Positions 10,950-29,327 of a stretch of DNA of 40,663 nt are shown here, one piece after another. The position numbers were made by a program, and so were the translations under genes. The notes beneath the pieces are model-generated. The model saw only the letters and a program-made list of their open reading frames with translations, made no database searches and was not told the DNA's origin. How positions within the stretch are numbered: the first letter of the stretch is position 1; every line of letters begins with the position of its first letter. The DNA is from Anaerococcus sp. AGMB09787. Its GTDB lineage: Bacteria > Bacillota > Clostridia > Tissierellales > Peptoniphilaceae. Location: NCBI RefSeq assembly GCF_022808955.1, contig NZ_JAKZEY010000011.1, forward strand, positions 1 through 40,663. Reading direction: 5' to 3'.

Positions 10950-11432
10950 TCAAATTTTTTTCTTATAGTGGGCAAGTGTCTTGTAGTCAAAGCCTGGCTT
11001 ATATTTCTCTAAACCATCATCTCCATAAATATAATCATAGAGGTTCTTTTCTTCCCTAACAAGGTTTAAGCTTGGATTAGCTGACCTATACTCTTCTCTG
11101 AGTGTAAGATTAAGATCATCAGGACTAAGCTTTCTCTCAGCCTTTAGAATGGCTATAAGGGAATTCTTTAGGTGACCTTCAAATATCTTAAACCTTCCTT
11201 CTGGGACGTATGCTGATTTTTCATTATCAAGGAGGAAGGCAACTACAAATTTATTATCTCCCCAATAGGCAAAGACCTCATCTAGCTTATCTGAAAGCTT
11301 GTATTCATCAAAGTCCTTCACAATGTGAACCATGAGATTGCCTGTTTCATCATCGTGGGCTAGGATATACTTCCTCTCCCTAAGGTCAAGCTCTTTGGCA
11401 CTATCGTATTCTTTTACTCCAAGCTTCATCAT
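10950..11432 (-). CDS. Staygreen-family protein
   Basis: Of 160 residues, the segment RKYILAHDDETGNLMVHIVK and later LDEVFAYWGDNKF and RFKIFEGHLKNSLIAILKAE follow the staygreen pattern (R-Y-T-x-T-H-x-D-x-T-G, R/D-E-V-x-x-W, then F-x-IF-xx-xL). Plant staygreen is a chlorophyll Mg-dechelatase, and bacterial homologues have been reported to remove Mg from chlorophyllide. No chlorophyll is expected here, so a related porphyrin or another substrate is possible. Two ATGs are adjacent (11432 and 11429); the first overlaps the previous stop by 1 nt. It is the last gene after the S-component-like protein. The family call rests on motif memory. Confidence 0.6.
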   Translation of the reverse strand: MMKLGVKEYDSAKELDLRERKYILAHDDETGNLMVHIVKDFDEYKLSDKLDEVFAYWGDNKFVVAFLLDNEKSAYVPEGRFKIFEGHLKNSLIAILKAERKLSPDDLNLTLREEYRSANPSLNLVREEKNLYDYIYGDDGLEKYKPGFDYKTLAHYKKKI

Positions 11433-11965
11433 TATAGGCCTAGCCTTTTATTTAGGATTTCTACTGTGTACTTACTAACAAGTAGACCAACAAAATAAAT
11501 CACTACAGTAACTATAGCTGTTGGTATATAGCCTGCTTGGATAAATCTAGATTGTGGGACAAAGAATTTTACTATAAAAAACGAAGTCCACACAGAAATA
11601 CATGACCTTATTGGGACAGAATAAACTATATTTCTATTCTTCTTATAGTTTCTAAAAATCACAAGGGTTATTATATCTGCCAAGATTCCTGAAAGAACTC
11701 CAGCCAAAGCACCAAATATTGTCATCCTCATCATATAAAGTCCATAGGCTATTGAAATTATAGAAACTGTACCAATTCTCCTAGTTACCATGGCTGTTGC
11801 CGCATAGATAAAGGCAAAGACTGGTGCTGTAACAAGTACTCTAGATGAAGGAATTGGTAGAGTCATGCTTATAGTATACAAAAGCCTACCTACAACTACC
11901 ATTAGGGCTAGGGCAAGTGCCATCAAAACCCAATCTCTTAGTGTAAATTTTTTTAAATTTTCCAT
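11432..11965 (-). CDS. Membrane protein resembling an ECF transporter S component (MptD/Trep_Strep type)
   Basis: An integral membrane protein of 177 residues beginning MENLKKFTLRDWVLMALALA. About five to six hydrophobic segments alternate with short basic loops (VTRRIG, RNYKKNRNI, NKRLGL), which fits the compact S component that binds vitamins or metals for ECF importers. The block GALAGVLSGILADIITLVIF resembles MptD-type proteins. The ATG at 11965 is preceded by GGTGG; the frame is open further upstream but overlaps the radical SAM gene and lacks an RBS. No ATPase or T component is adjacent, so it would need a shared ECF module. Substrate unknown. Confidence 0.6.
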   Translation of the reverse strand: MENLKKFTLRDWVLMALALALMVVVGRLLYTISMTLPIPSSRVLVTAPVFAFIYAATAMVTRRIGTVSIISIAYGLYMMRMTIFGALAGVLSGILADIITLVIFRNYKKNRNIVYSVPIRSCISVWTSFFIVKFFVPQSRFIQAGYIPTAIVTVVIYFVGLLVSKYTVEILNKRLGL

Positions 11966-11966
11966 A

Positions 11967-12950
11967 TTAATCCACCAAACTACAATATCTATCGAAGCCC
12001 AAATAGTCTCCGCTATCAGCAAAGGCCCTAGCCCTACATCCACCACATATATCGTGGTTGTTGCAAGTCTTACATAGACCTTTGTATTGGTCAAAATCTC
12101 TTAACTTCTCAAATATCGAACTATTATTCCATATATCAAGGAAAGAATTTTCCCTCAAGTTACCAGCCTCTATCTCTGCATAAGGACAGATATTTACCCT
12201 ACCGTCATAGACTACAGAGCAGTAAGATGTTCCAGCTATGCAGGCCTTCCTAACCCTTGGATCAAGACCTAGGTCTTTGGCTATTACTGTGGATTGAGGA
12301 GCGCAGGTTGGCTTGATAAAGATGTCGCTCTCGTATTCCAAAACTTCCTTTATGGCTTGGAGGTACTCCTCCTTATTTAAGTAGGAATCGCCGAGATTTT
12401 TCCCTCTACCTGTCATTACCAAGAATAAAACATGGATGGATGATGCACCTAGCTCTGTTGCAAAGTCTAGGATCTCTCTTATTTCATCCTTATTAAGTCT
12501 TGATATGGTAGTATTTATTTGGAGCTTGACCCCATTTTCCCTAAGAAGTCTAATCCCCTCCATGGTTTTATCGAAGGCACCCTCGTAGCCTCTAAATTCA
12601 TCATGGGTCTTCTTGTCAGTAGAATCAATTGATACAGCTACAGACTTTATGTATTTTTTGATATCCAATATATTATCTTCATTTATCAAAGTTCCATTTG
12701 ATCCAAGGCAAGTATAGAGACCAAGGTCCTTGGCATATTTAGCGAGTTCAAAGATATCAGGTCTCATAAGGGGTTCTCCACCTGATAGTTTGATCATATT
12801 AAAACCAGCTTCCTTCATATCCCTAAACAATTGCTTACATTCTTCTGTAGTCAATTCTCCTGAAGTATCTACATCTTCGCCAGAATTTCTATAGCAATGT
12901 TTACAAAATAGGTTGCAAGCCCTGGTTGTATTTAATGATACAATGTTCAT
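11967..12950 (-). CDS. Radical SAM/SPASM protein, AhbD/NirJ-like
   Basis: Of 327 residues, the radical SAM cluster motif CNLFCKHC is at C12, C16 and C19, with the SAM-binding KLSGGEPLMRPDIF following at about 55-68. A C-terminal SPASM region carries many cysteines: CIAGTSYC, then NICPYAEIEAGNL, then GLCKTCNNHDICGGCRARAF and a last C near the end. The CGGCRARA-F-ADSGDYLG-D-xx-C ending is characteristic of the haem-synthesis radical SAM enzymes (AhbD, NirJ) and relatives. Peptide-modifying SPASM enzymes are the alternative, but no small precursor peptide was found nearby. The ATG at 12950 follows AGGAGG. The gene lies between catalase and the S-component-like gene. Confidence 0.75.
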   Translation of the reverse strand: MNIVSLNTTRACNLFCKHCYRNSGEDVDTSGELTTEECKQLFRDMKEAGFNMIKLSGGEPLMRPDIFELAKYAKDLGLYTCLGSNGTLINEDNILDIKKYIKSVAVSIDSTDKKTHDEFRGYEGAFDKTMEGIRLLRENGVKLQINTTISRLNKDEIREILDFATELGASSIHVLFLVMTGRGKNLGDSYLNKEEYLQAIKEVLEYESDIFIKPTCAPQSTVIAKDLGLDPRVRKACIAGTSYCSVVYDGRVNICPYAEIEAGNLRENSFLDIWNNSSIFEKLRDFDQYKGLCKTCNNHDICGGCRARAFADSGDYLGFDRYCSLVD

Positions 12951-12969
12951 TTAACCTCCTTTTTTAATT

Positions 12970-13001
12970 AAATAAGGACTGCCCGAAAGCAATCCCTATT
13001 T
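12970..13001 (-). terminator. Terminator or attenuator between catalase and the radical SAM gene
   Basis: On minus, AAATAGGGATTGC pairs over 13 positions (two G-U) with GCAGTCCTTATTT around TTTCGG. The trailing sequence is only AATTAAAAAA, so termination may be partial. It would let part of the catalase transcript reach the three downstream genes. Confidence 0.5.
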
Positions 13002-13010
13002 GTAAAATTT

Positions 13011-14723
13011 TTATAGCAAGTATGGGTCGTTTTCCCAAGAGATAAGACTCTTAGGATCTTCCACGTTGGTATCTCTACCTTCTTCTGGTAGGTCCATTGC
13101 ACTTTCTGGTTCAGCAGGTTCTGTTGGATAGTTGAGATCAGCATCTCTTGCTATTTCCTTCTCCCACTCTTCTCTTGATGCAGGTATGTTCATTGTTACA
13201 TCTACATCGTCAATGTTTATGCCAAGTGCCTTAGCTACACCCTTACCATATTCAGGGTCTGCTTGGTAGCAGTTTCTGATGTATCTATGTTTTATTTGCA
13301 TGGTAGAATCGCCCATATTTCTAGCAGTATTTTCAAATAAAACTAGTTTTTGCTCATCTGTCATTCTATTAAATAGCATACCTGGTTGGGTAAAGTAGTC
13401 GTGGTCATCTTCCCTGAAGTCATATCTTTTTACAGTACCACCTTCATCGTGTGGTATTTCAAGTTCTGGTTGGTCTTTCCATGCTCCGTATGAGTTTGGA
13501 CCGTAGTGGAGTTCTGAGCCCTTGTTCCCATCTACTCTCATAGCTCCATCCCTGTGGAAATCGTGAGGATTTTTTACACCTTGTGGGCTATTTACTGGTA
13601 TTTGATGGTGGTTTACACCTAGTCTATATCTTTGAGCATCTGAATAGAAGAAGGCTCTAGCTTGGAGCATCCTATCTGGTGATAGAGCAATACCAGGAAC
13701 TATATTAGCAGGTGAGAAAGCAACTTGTTCTACATCTTGGAAGAAATTATCTGGGTATTTATTTAGCACATATTCACCTACTGGAATTAGTGGATAATCT
13801 TCCTTTAACCACATCTTTGTTAGGTCGAATGGGTTGTTTGGATGTTTTTTAGCTTGCTCTTCTGTCATAACTTGGATATACATCTTCCATTTTGGATATT
13901 GACCATTTTCTATAGCTTCATATAGGTCTCTACCTGAAGATTCTCTATCCTTACCATTTACAATCTCTGCTTCTTGGTCTGTGTAGTTTTGGATACCTTG
14001 TTGGCTTCTGAAGTGGAATTTAACCCAGAATCTTTCTCCCTCTTCATTGTACATAGAATATGTATGAGAACCGAATCCATGCATATATCTAAATGATGAT
14101 GGGATACCCCTATCAGAGTTAATTATTGTTGTTTGTAGTAATGATTCTGGTAGAGCTGACCAGTAGTCAAAGTTTGTATTTGGGCTTCTTAGGTGGCTCT
14201 TAGGATCTCTCTTAACAGCGTGGTTTAGGTCGATAAACTTCATTGGATCTCTAAAGAAGAATACTGGTGTATTGTTTCCTACTACATCCCAGTTACCATC
14301 TTCTGTATAAAATCTTACAGCAAATCCACGGATATCTCTTTCAGCATCAGCAGCTCCACGTTCTCCAGCTACTGTAGACATTCTAGAGAAGACCTTGCAC
14401 TTATTACCTACCTTAGAGAATAATTTAGCCTTGGTATACTTGGTGATATCATCTGTTACAGTAAATTCTCCCCAAGCACCCCATCCCTTGGCATGCATTC
14501 TTCTTTCTGGAATAACTTCCCTATTAAAATGAGCTTGTTTCTCAAATAACCACAAGTCTTGGATAGAAATGTGACCACGTTCTCCGGCAGTCATAGAATC
14601 TTCGTTGTTGTCTACAACTTGTCCACCAGCACGTCTAAGAGTTGGATCATCAGCTACATTTTGATTTCTACTTGGTATTGACTTTTCAACCTTGTTTTTT
14701 TTTGTTGGATCAATTTTTGCCAT
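13011..14723 (-). CDS. katA: Haem catalase
   Basis: Dismutates hydrogen peroxide. Of 570 residues, the core shows [20 protein letters not shown], the distal histidine in [13 protein letters not shown] (His77), the distal asparagine in [13 protein letters not shown] (about 150) and the proximal tyrosine in [15 protein letters not shown]. The following [10 protein letters not shown] is the usual segment. It is longer than small-subunit catalases (about 480-510), with a 40-residue polar N-terminal extension and an acidic C-terminal tail, but far short of the 700-residue class. The ATG at 14723 follows AGGAGG. The leader is about 130 nt with a PerR-like box near the start of transcription. An anaerobe needs a haem source for this enzyme, which gives weight to the next three genes. 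Confidence 0.95.
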
Positions 14724-14834: not shown

Positions 14835-14849
14835 TTATAATTATTTTAA
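14835..14849. promoter_or_regulatory. PerR-box-like operator of catalase
   Basis: TTATAATTATTTTAA matches the Bacillus PerR box TTATAATnATTATAA at 13 of 14 defined positions. It lies at about +8 to +22 from the predicted start, where a repressor would block transcription. The surroundings are AT-rich, so chance matching is possible, but the position is the same as that of the palindrome at the PerR-like gene. Confidence 0.5.
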
Positions 14850-15045: not shown

Positions 15046-15873
15046 CTATCCCCTATTAGCCTTTATGATATCATCTAATTGACTTCTTATTTTTTGGGCT
15101 TCCCTTATACTTTTTATTAATTCATTCCTTATCCCTAGGCTTGTCTTAGGGGCCTTTTCTAGGAGGATTTTGCCTGCCCTTACATATATATCATTTTGAT
15201 AAAAGGCTAGGGCTAGGTCCTTGTTTATATTTTTAAGCTCGCTTTCATCAGTAAATACAAGTCTTATTAGGTTGATTTTCCAAATATCTTCATCTCCTGT
15301 AGGACTATTTGACCCTTGATTTAAGATATCGATAGCCTTACCTACTAGGTCTTCAGATTCTCCTATAAGTTCTTCGAAATTCGCCCTTATAGGTTTTACG
15401 GTATTGGGACTAGTATTTATAAGGATCTTGGATGCTTCTACAAAGATTTGGTTTTTGTAGATGGTATAGGCTATTTTTTTATTATCTGTAGCCAATCTTT
15501 CATAGAATTCTTCTTCTTTTCTTTCCTGGTCTTTGATATATTCTTCATCAAAGCTTTCGAAGGCCTTGGTTACCTTCTCTCCTAGGAGGTTCATTAAATT
15601 AACTTGGCTAGCCTTATCCATATAGTCTTGGTTGTCAGTAAGAAGGCTAATGGTAAAGGCTGACTTGTCTGTTTCTATAAGGGCAAGGTCATTTTCTATA
15701 GTTATAAGCTCACCTGTTTTGTTGTAGGCGGTATAATTTGGATTTATATTTTTTAGAAGCTTTTTTCTTTTGGAAGACGAATTTTCCATAGACTCAAGCA
15801 TATCTTTACTTATGTAGTCATCTGCTGTGTATATGGCTACCATCCCCTTGGTTAAGTCCCTTGGATTGGTATA
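15046..15873 (-). pseudogene. C-terminal part of a frameshifted serine hydrolase
   Basis: This frame continues the protein begun at 16337 after a one-base loss near 15872. It reads YTNPRDLTKG, then MVAIYTADDYISKDMLESME, and supplies the KTG motif (YNKTGELI) that completes a class A beta-lactamase-type site. The remaining ~150 residues are helical and charged and contain two copies of a unit of about 48 residues: YKNQIFVEASKILI...PIRANFEEL and YQNDIYVRAGKILL...GIRNELIKS. On its own an ATG at 15843 could start a 265-residue product, but no good RBS precedes it and it would lack the nucleophile. Confidence 0.7.
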
Positions 15874-16337
15874 TTTTGCTTACCTCCTCCTAGCATATAC
15901 CTATTTAGTTGGGTCAAATTACTCTTGGTATACTTATAAATTGTTTGGTTTATCCTATCAAAACCACCCAGGGCATCTATTAGTCTATTTGTCGCTTCAT
16001 TATCTGAATTTCTTAAAGCAAGGTCAAGATCTCTTTTTATCTCATCTGTATAAGATAAATCTCCACCTAGGACCTGCTCTCTTACAGCAAGTCCTATAAA
16101 AATCTTGATGGTTGACGCTGATGTAAAGTAGTCTACATCAGTATTTTGCATATAAACATCGACATCACTTGGCCCATAAAGGCTTTTGATATGGACTTGG
16201 TAGTCAAGTTTACCATCAACAGTAGAAAAAACGGCCTCTCGAATATCATTTTTTAAATCGGCTTCACTGGCATAGGCCCTGCCAGCAAAGAAAAAAAGTC
16301 CAAAAATAAGTAAGAATATTTTAAATGTCTTTTTCAT
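15852..16337 (-). pseudogene. N-terminal part of a frameshifted serine hydrolase (class A beta-lactamase fold)
   Basis: It starts with a signal peptide (MKKTFKIFLLIFGLFFFAGR, then AYA-S), so the product would be exported. SxxK is at S75-T-I-K78 and SDN at 111-113, both in the spacing of class A beta-lactamases and related DD-peptidase-like enzymes. After LGGGKQN the frame runs into IPIQGT and a stop. A single added T at about 15872 would give KQNYTNPRDL, the expected continuation, and a product of about 430 residues. This may be a true mutation or a sequence error in the AAAATAT tract. It lies 12 nt after the 87-residue gene upstream. Confidence 0.7.
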
Positions 16338-17377: not shown

Positions 17378-17409
17378 AGAAAAAAAGCCTAAGTCTCTTA
17401 CTTAAGCTT
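17378..17409 (-). terminator. Terminator after znuB
   Basis: On minus, AAGCTTAAG pairs with CTTAGGCTT (one G-U) and is followed by TTTTTTTC. The 5' arm includes the last codons of znuB. Confidence 0.75.
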
Positions 17410-18198
17410 TCTTCTGATAAGTCCTATTATGGAAAAGATTATTAGGAAGGTTATTCCTATTAAAACTATGGTTCCTCCAGGTTTTAGTCCCTTGTAGAAG
17501 GAGATGCTTATTCCTCCTAGCATAAATATTAGGGAGAGGACTAGGGATAGTATATAGGTTGACCTGTAGGACCTTGCGACCATTAGGGCTGATGCCACTG
17601 GTATTACCATGAGGGATGTTATCATCAGGGCTCCTACGGTCTTTACTGAAATAGCTACTGTTATGGCAGTTATTAGGGTAAAGAGACCATCGACCACATG
17701 GATCTTAACCCCAGACAGTCTAGCCATTAGGGGATTGATGGAGTTATACAAGAGTCCATGGTAGTAGTATATGGAAACAAAGCTAACTAAGATAAACATG
17801 ACGCCTATAATAAGCAACTCTTCTTTACTTACTGTAGTTATTGATCCAAATAAGAAGGATTCAAAGCTTGCCCCTCCAGGTGTAAAGTCTGATAGGACTG
17901 CAGCAAGGCCTATACCAGTAGACATTACTATAGCTGTCGCCATATCCCCATATTGGTCAAACTTCTTCCTTATTGTTTCTATGGCAAAGGCTGATAGGAT
18001 ACATATAATTAGTGAAACCAAAAGGGGATTTATTCCCATAATTAAGCCTAGGGCTATTCCAGATAGGGATGAGTGGCTAAGGGCATCGCCTATCATAGAG
18101 GTCTTTCTATTAATCATTACCATCCCTATCATAGGGATAATTAGGGAAATCATAAACCCTGCCAAAAGGGCTCTTCTCATAAAATCGTAACTAAGCAT
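17398..18198 (-). CDS. znuB: Zinc (metal) ABC transporter permease
   Basis: An ABC-3 family permease of 266 residues with about eight membrane segments. The start MLSYDFMRRALLAGFMISLI, the loop KTSMIGDALSHSSLSGIALG and the TPGGASFESFLFG segment are typical of Znu/Adc/Mnt permeases. It overlaps znuC by 8 nt. Zinc is favoured over manganese because of the binding protein's long histidine-rich loop and the divergent Zur-like gene. Confidence 0.88.
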   Translation of the reverse strand: MLSYDFMRRALLAGFMISLIIPMIGMVMINRKTSMIGDALSHSSLSGIALGLIMGINPLLVSLIICILSAFAIETIRKKFDQYGDMATAIVMSTGIGLAAVLSDFTPGGASFESFLFGSITTVSKEELLIIGVMFILVSFVSIYYYHGLLYNSINPLMARLSGVKIHVVDGLFTLITAITVAISVKTVGALMITSLMVIPVASALMVARSYRSTYILSLVLSLIFMLGGISISFYKGLKPGGTIVLIGITFLIIFSIIGLIRRKLK

Positions 18199-18859
18199 GG
18201 CTTATCCTCCCCTCATGAAGGTATAGGATTCTTGTAACATAGTCCTTTATTAAATCAAGCTCGTGACTAATAATAAGGATCGTTAGGCCATGGTACTTGT
18301 TTAAGTGGATTAGGAGTTTCAAGAAGTCTTTCTTGTGCCTGGCATCAATACCAACTGTAGGCTCATCTAGGATAAGGAGCTTGGGATCTGATACCAAGGC
18401 CCTAGCTATCATCACCCTTTGTTGCTGACCTCCTGAGAGGTCCTTGAAGGGCTTTTTCCTAAGCTTTTGGATGGAGAGGTCCTTGAAGGTAAAGTCAAGT
18501 CTCTCCCAGCACTCTTTTGTAGGTCTCTTGAAGATATTAAACTTTTTGTAGAGACCCAGGATGGCATATTCCTCACAAGTTATGGGGAAAGCTATCTTTG
18601 TCGAATCCTTCGCTTGAGGAACATATCCAATCTTGTCATAGTCCTTGAAGGCTTCTATGTCCTTACCTAGGATTTTTATCTCTCCTCCATCCTTTTTTAG
18701 GTTCTTAAGGAGGATATTTATAAGAGTAGACTTCCCAGCCCCATTTTCTCCACTAAGTGCTAGGAAGTCTCCTTCATTTACGTCAAAATTTATATCGTCT
18801 AATATTAAATTGTACGGATAGGAAAATTTTAAATTCCTTATTTCTATAAGTTTAGTCAT
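18191..18859 (-). CDS. znuC: Zinc (metal) ABC transporter ATP-binding protein
   Basis: Powers metal import with ZnuA and ZnuB. Of 222 residues, Walker A is SGENGAGKSTLIN, the Q-loop is in IGYVPQAKD, the signature is DLSGGQQQRVMIARAL, Walker B is LLILDEPTVGID and the switch histidine is in ISHELDLI. It starts 1 nt after znuA ends. Confidence 0.9.
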   Translation of the reverse strand: MTKLIEIRNLKFSYPYNLILDDINFDVNEGDFLALSGENGAGKSTLINILLKNLKKDGGEIKILGKDIEAFKDYDKIGYVPQAKDSTKIAFPITCEEYAILGLYKKFNIFKRPTKECWERLDFTFKDLSIQKLRKKPFKDLSGGQQQRVMIARALVSDPKLLILDEPTVGIDARHKKDFLKLLIHLNKYHGLTILIISHELDLIKDYVTRILYLHEGRISHA

Positions 18860-18860
18860 A

Positions 18861-20018
18861 TTAGGCTAGGGAATTGTAGATTGCTTCTAGGTTTTCTTTG
18901 ATTAATTCTTGGTAGGTTACTTCGTTTTCTAATTCTTCATCAGATGCAAACTCTATAGTTGAGATAGGCTCAGCAGTTGCGCCAATTTCATTAGCTAGGG
19001 TCTTGGCTTCTTCATCTGAACCACCCTTTTCATAGAAGACTACCTTTAGTTTTTCTTCCTTGGCAAGGTCTGTTACTTCCTTAAGAACCTTGGCATCTGT
19101 TTCTCCTGTTGAAGTTAGGTTGTTTAGGGGGATTTGTTCAAGGTCAAATCTTTTAGCCAAGTAACCAAAGGCTTCATGTGGTACTATGAATTTCTTGTTT
19201 TCTACTGATGAGAATTTTTCGCTATATTCATTAACTATAGCATCTAGTTCATCGGCAATTTTTTGGTAGTTGGCTTGGAAGTAGTCCTTGTTGGCAGGAT
19301 CTATCTCTGATAGCTTGTCAGCTATAACCTTGGCTTGTTCTTTACCATTTTCTGGGTCTAACCAAGTATGAGGGTCAAATTCGCCGTGGTTGTGGTGGTG
19401 ATGGCCTTCTTCTTCACGGTCATGCTCTTCAACGTCTTCGTGTTCATGATCGTTGTCTTCAACGTCTTCGTGTTCATGGTCTTCTTCGTGTTCATGATCG
19501 TGGTCTTCACCCTCTTCATGTTCGTGGTCTTCTTCGCCTTCTTCATGGTCATGTACATGGCCACCTTCTGCCTTTATATATTCGATATTTTCTGATGTAT
19601 TGACAAAGTCTGTTTCTACATTTTCTTCAACATCTTCAGCCCATTCTTCCATACCAGCTCCATTTATAAAGATTAGTCCAGCCTCTGATAGGTCTGCTAT
19701 TTCCTTGGCTGATGGTTCAAAGCCATGGGATTCTGTCTTTAGATTGGTGAAGGATTTTACTTCGAATTTATCTCCTGCTATTTGTTTGGTTAAATTATAT
19801 ATAGGATAAAAAGAAGCATAGACTACAGAGCTTTCTTCATTTTCTTCTGATTTCTCTTTTTCTGTTGAAGGTCTAACTACTCCCTCACTATCTTCTGTAG
19901 ATGGTCCAGATGTTACTTCTGTATTTTCTATATTTGCCGGTTCTCCTTGATTATTGTTGCCACAAGCTGTTAAGGCTAAGCTCAAAGCAAGTAGGGTTAT
20001 TATTTTCTTGTTTTTCAT
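18861..20018 (-). CDS. znuA: Zinc-binding lipoprotein of the ZnuA family
   Basis: Captures metal at the cell surface and delivers it to ZnuBC. It is 385 residues. A lipoprotein signal ends at LTAC (Cys19). A Ser/Glu-rich linker follows, then SSVVYASFYPIYNLTKQIAG opens the cluster A-I fold. A long His/Asp/Glu loop at about 155-215 ends in GHHHHNHGEFDPHTWLDPEN, whose last histidine is a zinc ligand; other ligands are in the HEAFGYLAKRF segment and YEKGG region. The loop is encoded by a 30-nt tandem repeat (19427-19486). The ATG at 20018 follows GAGGAGG. Confidence 0.93.
   Translation of the reverse strand: MKNKKIITLLALSLALTACGNNNQGEPANIENTEVTSGPSTEDSEGVVRPSTEKEKSEENEESSVVYASFYPIYNLTKQIAGDKFEVKSFTNLKTESHGFEPSAKEIADLSEAGLIFINGAGMEEWAEDVEENVETDFVNTSENIEYIKAEGGHVHDHEEGEEDHEHEEGEDHDHEHEEDHEHEDVEDNDHEHEDVEEHDREEEGHHHHNHGEFDPHTWLDPENGKEQAKVIADKLSEIDPANKDYFQANYQKIADELDAIVNEYSEKFSSVENKKFIVPHEAFGYLAKRFDLEQIPLNNLTSTGETDAKVLKEVTDLAKEEKLKVVFYEKGGSDEEAKTLANEIGATAEPISTIEFASDEELENEVTYQELIKENLEAIYNSLA
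19427..19516. repeat. 30-nt tandem repeat in the histidine-rich loop of znuA
   Basis: The unit CTTCAACGTCTTCGTGTTCA plus TGATCGTTGT is repeated from 19427 and from 19457, with degraded 15-nt and 21-nt copies up to about 19516. It encodes runs of (D/E)H-E-H-E-D. Slippage here would change the length of the metal loop without breaking the frame, since the units are multiples of three. Confidence 0.7.
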
Positions 20019-20030
20019 TATTCCTCCTCT

Positions 20031-20045
20031 TGCAATTTATTTGCA
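20031..20045. promoter_or_regulatory. Palindromic operator candidate between znuA and the Zur-like gene
   Basis: TGCAA-TTTAT-TTGCA, a 15-nt interrupted palindrome at about +1 to +15 of the znuA promoter. It is a natural site for the adjacent Fur-family regulator, although it differs from the Bacillus Zur box. Confidence 0.45.
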
Positions 20046-20051
20046 TATTTA

Positions 20052-20091
20052 ATTATATTCGAGTTTAAACCTTTGTCAAATAAGGTATAAT
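20052..20091. promoter_or_regulatory. Overlapping divergent promoters of znuA and the Zur-like gene
   Basis: For znuA (minus): TTGACA (20074-20079), a 16-nt spacer and TATAAT (20052-20057), full consensus hexamers. For the regulator (plus): TATAAT at 20086-20091 with a weak TTTAAA 16 nt upstream. The two overlap, so one regulator could control both. Confidence 0.65.
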
Positions 20092-20110
20092 ATCGAAAAG
20101 AGGTGACATT

Positions 20111-20524
20111 TTGGATATTAGACAAACACTTAAAGATAAAAATCTTAGGGTTACAAACCAAAGGAAGCTAATCCTTAAGGCCTTCCTTGAAGATGGTAAT
20201 CCTATATCAGCAGAAGATCTTTACGATTTATTGAGAAATGAGATTGAACTAGACTTATCAACCATTTATAGGAACCTAAACACTTTGGAAGAAAATGGTA
20301 TTTTGTTAAGGTCCATTGACCTAAATGGGGTAAGTTATTACCAACTAAATAATGCAGACCACAAGCATTTTATAACTTGTAATATCTGCCACAAAAAGTT
20401 TCTTATAGACTCATGCCCTGTCCATATCTTAGAAGATAAGATAGAAAAGGATACAGGTTTTATTATTTCTGGTCATAATTTTGAATTTACAGGTATATGC
20501 CCTGATTGTCAAAAAAGTTTATAG
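20111..20524 (+). CDS. zur: Fur-family regulator, probably Zur
   Basis: A winged-helix metal-dependent repressor of 137 residues. It has RVTNQRKLILKAFLEDGNPI, the recognition helix segment DLSTIYRNLNTLEENGI, then DHKHFITCNICHK and GICPDCQ, with CxxC pairs for structural zinc. The start is TTG 20111 with AGAGGTG 6-7 nt upstream. It is divergent from znuACB, which argues for zinc sensing; this is inference from context. Confidence 0.78.
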   Translation: MDIRQTLKDKNLRVTNQRKLILKAFLEDGNPISAEDLYDLLRNEIELDLSTIYRNLNTLEENGILLRSIDLNGVSYYQLNNADHKHFITCNICHKKFLIDSCPVHILEDKIEKDTGFIISGHNFEFTGICPDCQKSL

Positions 20525-28157: not shown

Positions 28158-29327
28158 ATGACCCAATTACATTTTACATTAAACATAGAAGATATTCAAA
28201 ATTTAATTAACTCAGAAGTTAAAAATGATATAGCTAAGAAAATTCTAACCAAGGTATTTAATGAGCTTATGGAAAAAGAAAGAGATGAATACTTAGATAA
28301 TCAAGCCTATCAAAGAGATCCTAATAGGAGCACTTACCGTAATGGATACTATGAACGTGACTATACGACAAAAATAGGAACGTTAACCCTAAGAGTACCT
28401 AGGACAAGAGATGGTAAATTCTCTACAGAAGTCTTTGAAAGATATCAAAGAAATGAGAAAGCACTACTTGCAACCATGTTAGAAATGTACATCCAAGGAG
28501 TATCAACAAGAAAAGTATCCAAGGTAATAGAAAACATGTGCGGTAAAACATATTCCAAATCCTTTGTATCATCCTTAACTAAAGAGTTAGACGAAGAAGT
28601 AAAACTATGGAGAAATAGTGATCTAAGCACGATAACATATCCCTACATAATTGTAGATGTAGTATACATAAAAGTAAGAGAAAACAATAGAGTAGTATCA
28701 AAAGCTTGTCACATTGCAATAGGAATAAATGAAAAAGGAAACAGAGAAATCATAGGCTTAGACCTAAGTGCTAGCGAAAGTGAATACTCATGGTCAAATT
28801 TCTTTGAATATCTAAAAGTTAGAGGATTATCTGGAGTTAAAATGGTAATATCAGATGCTCACAAAGGTCTAGTCAAAGCAATAAAAGAAACATTTATAAA
28901 TGTATCATGGCAAAGATGTCAAGTCCATTTTCTAAGAACCATCCTAACAAAAGCACCAAAGAAAAACACTGAAGAATTTAGGGCAGATATGAAGTCTTTA
29001 TTTAAAATTCAAGATATATCTCTAGCAAGAAAAATGAAAGATGAGATATTCGTAAAATATGAAAAAGAAAAGAAATATCAAAACTCATTAAAAACCTTAG
29101 ATGAAGGATTTGAAGATGCTTTTGCATATCTAGCTAATGATATAATTCATAGTAGACTTAGGTCAACAAATTGCATAGAAAGATTAAATCAAGAAGTTAG
29201 AAGACGAGAGAAAGTCGTTAGGATATTTCCTAATGAAAAATCTGCTATGCGCTTAATAGGTTCAATCCTCATTGATATCAATGAGGATTGGATCACATCT
29301 TCTAAATTGTATATTAAAATGAAGTAG
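28158..29327 (+). CDS. IS256-family (Mutator-type) transposase
   Basis: A DDE transposase of 389 residues. The N-terminal part has DEYLDNQAYQRDPNRSTYRN, like other IS256 proteins. The catalytic residues are D in PYIIVDVVYIKV, D in MVISDAHKGLVKAI and E in STNCIERLNQEVRRREKVV, with the CQVHFLRT motif between. The ATG at 28158 follows AGGAGG. No stop or frameshift is seen, so the element may be active. Confidence 0.95.
   Translation: MTQLHFTLNIEDIQNLINSEVKNDIAKKILTKVFNELMEKERDEYLDNQAYQRDPNRSTYRNGYYERDYTTKIGTLTLRVPRTRDGKFSTEVFERYQRNEKALLATMLEMYIQGVSTRKVSKVIENMCGKTYSKSFVSSLTKELDEEVKLWRNSDLSTITYPYIIVDVVYIKVRENNRVVSKACHIAIGINEKGNREIIGLDLSASESEYSWSNFFEYLKVRGLSGVKMVISDAHKGLVKAIKETFINVSWQRCQVHFLRTILTKAPKKNTEEFRADMKSLFKIQDISLARKMKDEIFVKYEKEKKYQNSLKTLDEGFEDAFAYLANDIIHSRLRSTNCIERLNQEVRRREKVVRIFPNEKSAMRLIGSILIDINEDWITSSKLYIKMK
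29263..29290. repeat. Perfect 28-bp palindrome inside the transposase gene
   Basis: The arm CAATCCTCATTGAT is followed immediately by its exact reverse complement. It encodes SILIDINED near the C-terminus. It can form a 12-bp hairpin, which might limit transcription or translation through the element. Confidence 0.8.

Follow-up and report, generated by a model that had tools for sequence, protein, structure and literature searches.

The closest described relatives of the locus examined here each handle a tetrapyrrole in a different way. AhbD catalyses the final step of the sirohaem-dependent route to haem (passages of PMC10452713). LhaSTA, the haem energy-coupling factor (ECF) transporter of Staphylococcus lugdunensis, is encoded together with T and A genes of its own and supplies the cell with iron drawn from haem (passages of PMC7299338). 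The staygreen protein of Anaerolineae, with structure 7y5y, is a magnesium dechelatase (passages of PMC8531759 and PMC11006732), and a 2021 paper terms the role of bacterial staygreen proteins unknown. HmuS, the haem dechelatase of Bacteroides, is a class I chelatase-type protein that removes iron from haem (passages of PMC12583661). Finally, coproporphyrins and zinc porphyrins of Sphingopyxis support the growth of Leucobacter, according to passages in citing papers. Here we describe four intact genes on the minus strand at 10950-14723 of a 40,663-nucleotide stretch (hereafter the window, meaning the whole stretch) from the genome of Anaerococcus sp. AGMB09787, which is 2.0 Mb in size and 98% complete. 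They encode a haem catalase, an AhbD-like radical SAM/SPASM enzyme, a membrane protein resembling an ECF S-component, and a protein of the staygreen family. The last three are a conserved unit whose radical SAM enzyme falls in the AhbD clade; most genomes that bear the unit lack the upstream pathway, and in the loci compared an AhbD gene without pathway genes always stands beside an importer. On this basis we think it fairly probable that the three-gene cassette salvages external coproporphyrin III, or its iron form, into haem, with the staygreen protein handling the metal.

Set against these systems, the cassette enzyme shares with AhbD its clade, its SPASM cysteines and the predicted conversion of Fe-coproporphyrin III to haem b, but its sequence has diverged, its gene lies beside importer and staygreen genes, and its bearers lack AhbC and mostly lack HemB. 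The membrane protein is like LhaSTA in that an S-component is thought to carry a tetrapyrrole, a proposed likeness of role. With 7y5y the staygreen protein shares its fold and catalytic aspartates, and it differs in its genomic tie to haem-making genes. HmuS, an unrelated protein, is comparable in its anaerobic handling of porphyrin metal. Leucobacter is a precedent for a haem auxotroph that uses another bacterium's coproporphyrin, and the passages on it mention neither AhbD nor staygreen. A literature search, which left most subscription journals uncovered, returned no account of these genes as a set and none of AhbD bearers taking up coproporphyrin. It likewise gave no paper on heme together with Trep_Strep, a family matched by relatives of the membrane protein.

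A three-gene unit downstream of catalase

Coordinates, Pfam matches and fold confirmed the first-pass annotation of the locus, which had described four same-strand genes packed after catalase, with a radical SAM enzyme ending in CGGCRARA, a membrane protein of S-component form and a staygreen-like protein. The catalase (13011-14723, minus strand, 570 aa) matches PF00199 with 583 bits (E 3.3e-175) and also PF06628. From it through the radical SAM and membrane protein genes to the staygreen gene, the intergenic gaps are 60, 1 and -1 bases. The membrane protein starts at the ATG at 11965, giving 177 aa; a listed 220-aa frame from 12094 runs over the radical SAM gene.

We searched a sample of 130 genomes of the family, counting the radical SAM enzyme at E values up to 1e-40 and staygreen by PF12638. 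Staygreen was found in 8 genomes and the radical SAM enzyme in exactly those 8, three of them from the window's genus (the window's genome, G013 and G027) and five from a second, assigned to Peptoniphilus (P. harei, P. gorbachii, P. phoceensis, P. timonensis and P. ovalis). In seven bearers, the window counted in, the trio of radical SAM, membrane protein and staygreen genes is intact and contiguous. The eighth, G027, carries a decayed cassette (L016:3125-4415), where the radical SAM gene is broken, the membrane gene is gone and the remnant runs into staygreen. At least three gene sets flank the cassette, those of the window, of P. ovalis and of the remaining Peptoniphilus all differing, which indicates that it holds together independently of its surroundings. 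The last three genes thus form a unit, beyond chance neighbourhood. By their ratios of non-synonymous to synonymous substitution rates (dN/dS), the cassette genes and catalase are under purifying selection. The AhbD-like gene and catalase both gave 0.05, from two pairs and one pair respectively, the membrane protein gave 0.16 and 0.17, and staygreen gave 0.13 in one pair, its second pair being saturated; dS was high throughout (1.3-3.4).

In every bearer but G013, where it lies on another contig, catalase is the gene immediately preceding the trio (7 of 8). It occurs in 61 of the 130 family genomes, including every bearer, so that the trio is not commonly found without a haem protein, although the bearers are kin and these co-occurrences are not independent events. 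G013 and many relatives carry a longer catalase of about 700 aa (L030:7776-9905), unlike the 570-aa form linked to the cassette. Beyond the window and G110, a class-level sample of 391 genomes held PF12638 in 9 genomes, once below the cut-off; no radical SAM gene was seen by eye in 10 class staygreen stretches, one of which (L051) lies on a contig that stops at the gene.

An enzyme of the AhbD clade beside importers

The radical SAM/SPASM enzyme (11967-12950, minus strand, 327 aa; PF04055 and SPASM PF13186) scored highest among NCBIfam models with NirJ2 (TIGR04055, 365 bits), followed by AhbD (TIGR04545, 310 bits) and TIGR04053, a family without an assigned role (237 bits), and no model of a known peptide maturase exceeded 161 bits. 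That NirJ2 is its top model does not speak against AhbD, because AhbDs from pathway clusters also score best there: the four that we scanned reached 485-621 bits, three of them passing TIGR04055, and they too fell below the TIGR04545 cut-off (337-394 bits). The CGGCRARA motif lies at the C-terminus, and the cysteines (C12, 16 and 19; C216, 237, 255, 293, 296, 302, 305 and 323) are spaced as in the published AhbD motif with full SPASM spacing, CX3CX2C plus CX20-33CX17CX36-37CX2CX5CX2CX17-35C (passages of PMC10452713). In a 79-row tree the enzyme fell inside a 36-row AhbD clade (support 98/98), AhbC formed a separate clade (99/95) and other SPASM rows lay outside both, which bears out the earlier reading as AhbD/NirJ-like rather than peptide-modifying; a peptide-maturase identity was rejected on the model scores and the tree together. 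This tree omitted L016, L062, L075, L085 and L087, duplicate rows, any row shorter than 280 aa and, among the other SPASM proteins, those scoring below 100 bits; its input did not include L053-L057. Near the cassette enzyme in the tree lie L059, from a Tissierellia genome, and L058, from a Clostridiaceae pathway cluster.

The pathway that would feed such an enzyme was missing from most bearers. Of the 7 genomes whose cassette is intact, 6 lack HemB, and completeness is 99% for five of these six and 87% for the other (G119); among all 8 bearers it was found only in the window's genome and G027. Ferrochelatase (PF00762) was found in none of 19 genomes searched, the 8 bearers included, and AhbC in none of the 8 bearers or G506, where a search with the AhbD model gave one enzyme each (in G027 a fragment only); the same search recovered both AhbD and AhbC in G335 and G350. 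HemB was also absent from G506, the genome of L059, which has an AhbD and S-component pair; the HemB searches did not cover G366 or the Eggerthellales genome discussed below. No AhbA/AhbB gene was seen inside the stretches read around the cassettes, a genome-wide search not having been made. No complete haem route was thus found in the cassette genomes as judged from ferrochelatase, AhbC and HemB, with HemE and AhbA/AhbB not searched genome-wide. Because AhbC and ferrochelatase were not found and HemB is missing from six of the seven intact bearers, the substrate should come from outside. The earlier observation that the window holds no haem-biosynthesis genes stood for the window itself, and the absence of complete synthesis held for ferrochelatase, AhbC and most HemB searches, but neither extends to a genome free of such genes, as HemB and what is probably a sirohaem operon occur elsewhere in the window's genome.

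We then compared 37 AhbD loci with an own-model score above 400, leaving out L062 (same genome as L010) and the decayed L016 and L085; L053-L057, from the genomes of L011-L015 again, were not scanned. In 27 of these, AhbC, AhbA/B or hem genes lie in the stretch, and modelled importer genes in none of the 27. The other 10 have no pathway genes in the stretch, and the gene next to AhbD encodes an importer in every one of them: the cassette membrane protein in eight, and a Peripla_BP_2 protein, FecCD permease and ATPase in two. The hidden Markov models used for these counts were built partly from the loci scored, those for FecCD and the binding protein from L084 and L169 alone, so that other importer types would be missed, and several of the genomes are metagenome-assembled. 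Both FecCD-type loci, L169:9903-13651 (G366) and L084:9998-13897 (Eggerthellales), run from AhbD through Peripla_BP_2 and FecCD to the ATPase; their AhbDs form a tree branch separate from the S-component-linked ones, and the two importer types are unrelated. L084 adjoins genes for CcmE, CcmF, CcmB and a cytochrome c assembly protein, and L059 adjoins multihaem cytochrome, ResB-like, CcsA-like and YgbA_NO genes, while no evident haem protein was found near the G366 locus. A riboflavin-type S-component lies further downstream at L058, a pathway locus, and falls outside the cassette S-component family. In the class sample an AhbD match above 300 bits occurred in 9 genomes, with an AhbC-type match adjacent in 6 and none in G000, G110 and G366, the last less firmly so as the scan scored the best 5 candidates per genome.

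Proposed salvage of an imported porphyrin and competing explanations

The membrane protein (11432-11965, minus strand) has the six-helix fold of an S-component and is a probable porphyrin importer. No known S-component family matched it and its profile matched no solved structure by sequence; of 10 aligned family members, 5 match PF09605 Trep_Strep, and two of four scanned singly pass its cut-off. The shared ECF module, a point raised in the first-pass annotation, is present, as judged from EcfT/CbiQ alone, in all 15 genomes searched (in G119 the frame carries a stop). Two relatives of the protein lie near haem proteins: in G350, a distant genome, 65 bases upstream of catalase with no radical SAM or staygreen gene nearby (L116:9651-11794), and in G335 in an operon with NrfA, ResB-like, CcsA-like, NIR_SIR-domain and DsbD-type genes (L120:7867-14096). 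The staygreen-family protein (10950-11432, minus strand, 160 aa) matches PF12638 at 47.8 bits against a cut-off of 27 and keeps the staygreen fold. Its catalytic residues D28, D51 and H26, equivalent to D34, D62 and H32 of the reference, are invariant in 7 of 7 sequences, and reference T29 is replaced by I23. It is a probable porphyrin metal-handling enzyme, which might either remove or load metal.

Homology and gene position together suggest the following scheme. Outside the cell the S-component would bind coproporphyrin III, either metal-free or carrying iron or zinc, and then import it through the shared ECF module; the staygreen protein would then set the metal, either taking out a wrong one or loading iron. 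By analogy with its homologs, the AhbD-like enzyme is predicted to decarboxylate two propionates oxidatively to vinyls, converting Fe-coproporphyrin III to haem b without oxygen, and the position of the genes suggests that this haem would pass to the adjoining catalase, its likely though perhaps not sole client. The bearers, seemingly unable to make haem, thus probably finish an imported haem precursor for catalase, a route between synthesis and theft. A more specific version, in which the bacterium has kept only the last enzyme of the sirohaem-dependent pathway, imports coproporphyrin III from neighbours and uses staygreen to insert iron in place of ferrochelatase, is possible but rather doubtful. 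Coproporphyrin III is released by skin bacteria, and neighbours on the skin are a candidate source. Were such a third haem route real, bacterial staygreen would have a physiological role, and coproporphyrin III would be a shared community nutrient. If the salvage reading as such holds, porphyrins released by bacteria would feed their neighbours, coproporphyrin rather than host haem may sustain some apparent haem auxotrophs, and bacterial staygreen proteins would gain a physiological context. An AhbD without its pathway beside an S-component or FecCD-type importer would be a general, searchable genomic signature.

Overall the porphyrin-salvage interpretation of the first-pass annotation is partly supported, and several observations weigh against it. 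The enzyme misses both equivalog cut-offs (365 and 310 bits against 500 each), given which we class it as AhbD-like and not as AhbD proper, and the cassette enzymes sit on a long stem of 0.82; because of these scores and this stem, its substrate may have changed. L059 groups with the pathway-cluster enzyme L058 and not solely with cassette enzymes. The expected association with catalase held in one direction, with every bearer having the gene, but 53 of the 61 catalase-bearing family genomes lack the trio and G027 let the cassette decay while keeping catalase. On another contig, the window's genome carries hemB within a probable sirohaem route that reads hemA-sirC-hemC-cobA/hemD-hemB-hemL, beside asrABC-like genes (names by eye except hemB), an operon that probably serves the sirohaem of a sulfite reductase. 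Both G350 and G335 have the S-component despite possessing AhbD, AhbC and HemB, and in G350 an FMN-binding protein lies on its other side; in three further genomes it is near FMN-binding-type genes and not haem proteins, and in one it stands alone. There is no staygreen gene in the stretches read at L059, L084 and L169. Orphan AhbDs also reflect few independent origins, at least two. Lastly, a related Leucobacter strain (GP) keeps downstream porphyrin genes and, according to the citing passages, was not rescued by coproporphyrin III.

The best surviving alternative, although an unlikely one, is that whole haem enters through an LhaS-like S-component, staygreen strips its iron and the radical SAM enzyme alters the leftover porphyrin, making the cassette an iron-from-haem or detoxification system. 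Metal removal is the known staygreen reaction, LhaSTA shows that haem ECF importers exist and HmuS that haem can be dechelated anaerobically, but the enzyme sits in a haem-making clade, the cassette accompanies a haem-requiring protein, and the orphan AhbDs of L059 and L084 adjoin cytochrome c genes with no staygreen gene in the stretch read. Somewhat less probable still, the enzyme might finish an internal tetrapyrrole, sirohaem or coproporphyrinogen, from a missed route, the S-component carrying something else. The HemB of a probable sirohaem operon in the window's genome and G027 would fit this, as would the S-component relatives found where the Ahb gene set is complete and a search that did not extend to HemE and AhbA/B; against it, HemB is missing from most intact bearers, AhbC and ferrochelatase from all 8, and G027, which has HemB, let its cassette decay. 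Modification of a peptide or of catalase itself, with the other two genes as bystanders or helpers, is very improbable. In its favour, many SPASM enzymes act on peptides and the gene adjoins catalase; against it, the enzyme lies within the AhbD clade, its score is 365 bits with NirJ2 but at most 161 with peptide maturases, the G013 trio lies away from catalase and inspection of the cassette showed no gene for a peptide.

Intergenic hairpin and neighbouring genes

Folding of the gap between the catalase and AhbD-like genes gave a hairpin (12970-13002, minus strand), a possible leaky terminator or attenuator. It was found in all seven catalase-linked loci (window, L010-L013, L015 and L016), just 5' of the ribosome-binding site of the AhbD-like gene, with gap folding energies of -14.4 to -20.3 kcal/mol and a stem sequence that differs between the two genera. 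Perhaps it brings about attenuation. At L014, where no catalase is present, a terminator-like inverted repeat, judged by eye, precedes the trio. Control of catalase by PerR or Fur was considered and judged unconvincing: a PerR-like site that has a single mismatch occurs at 14835-14849 and again in L016, but the region has a GC content of 24% or less and no equally good site was found at the other loci.

Upstream of catalase (15046-16337) a Beta-lactamase2 gene (PF13354) is apparently split over two adjacent frames, of which only the second piece matched the family. Further along, at 17398-20524, lies an ABC-3 metal transporter set that includes a His-rich binding protein and is accompanied by a Fur-family regulator; it probably handles zinc (names by eye except ABC-3), and a second Fur-family gene, also named by eye, is at 841-1284. 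An IS256-type transposase-like gene (by eye) lies at 28158-29327, and fragments of a similar one occur in L032, near the second catalase of G027.

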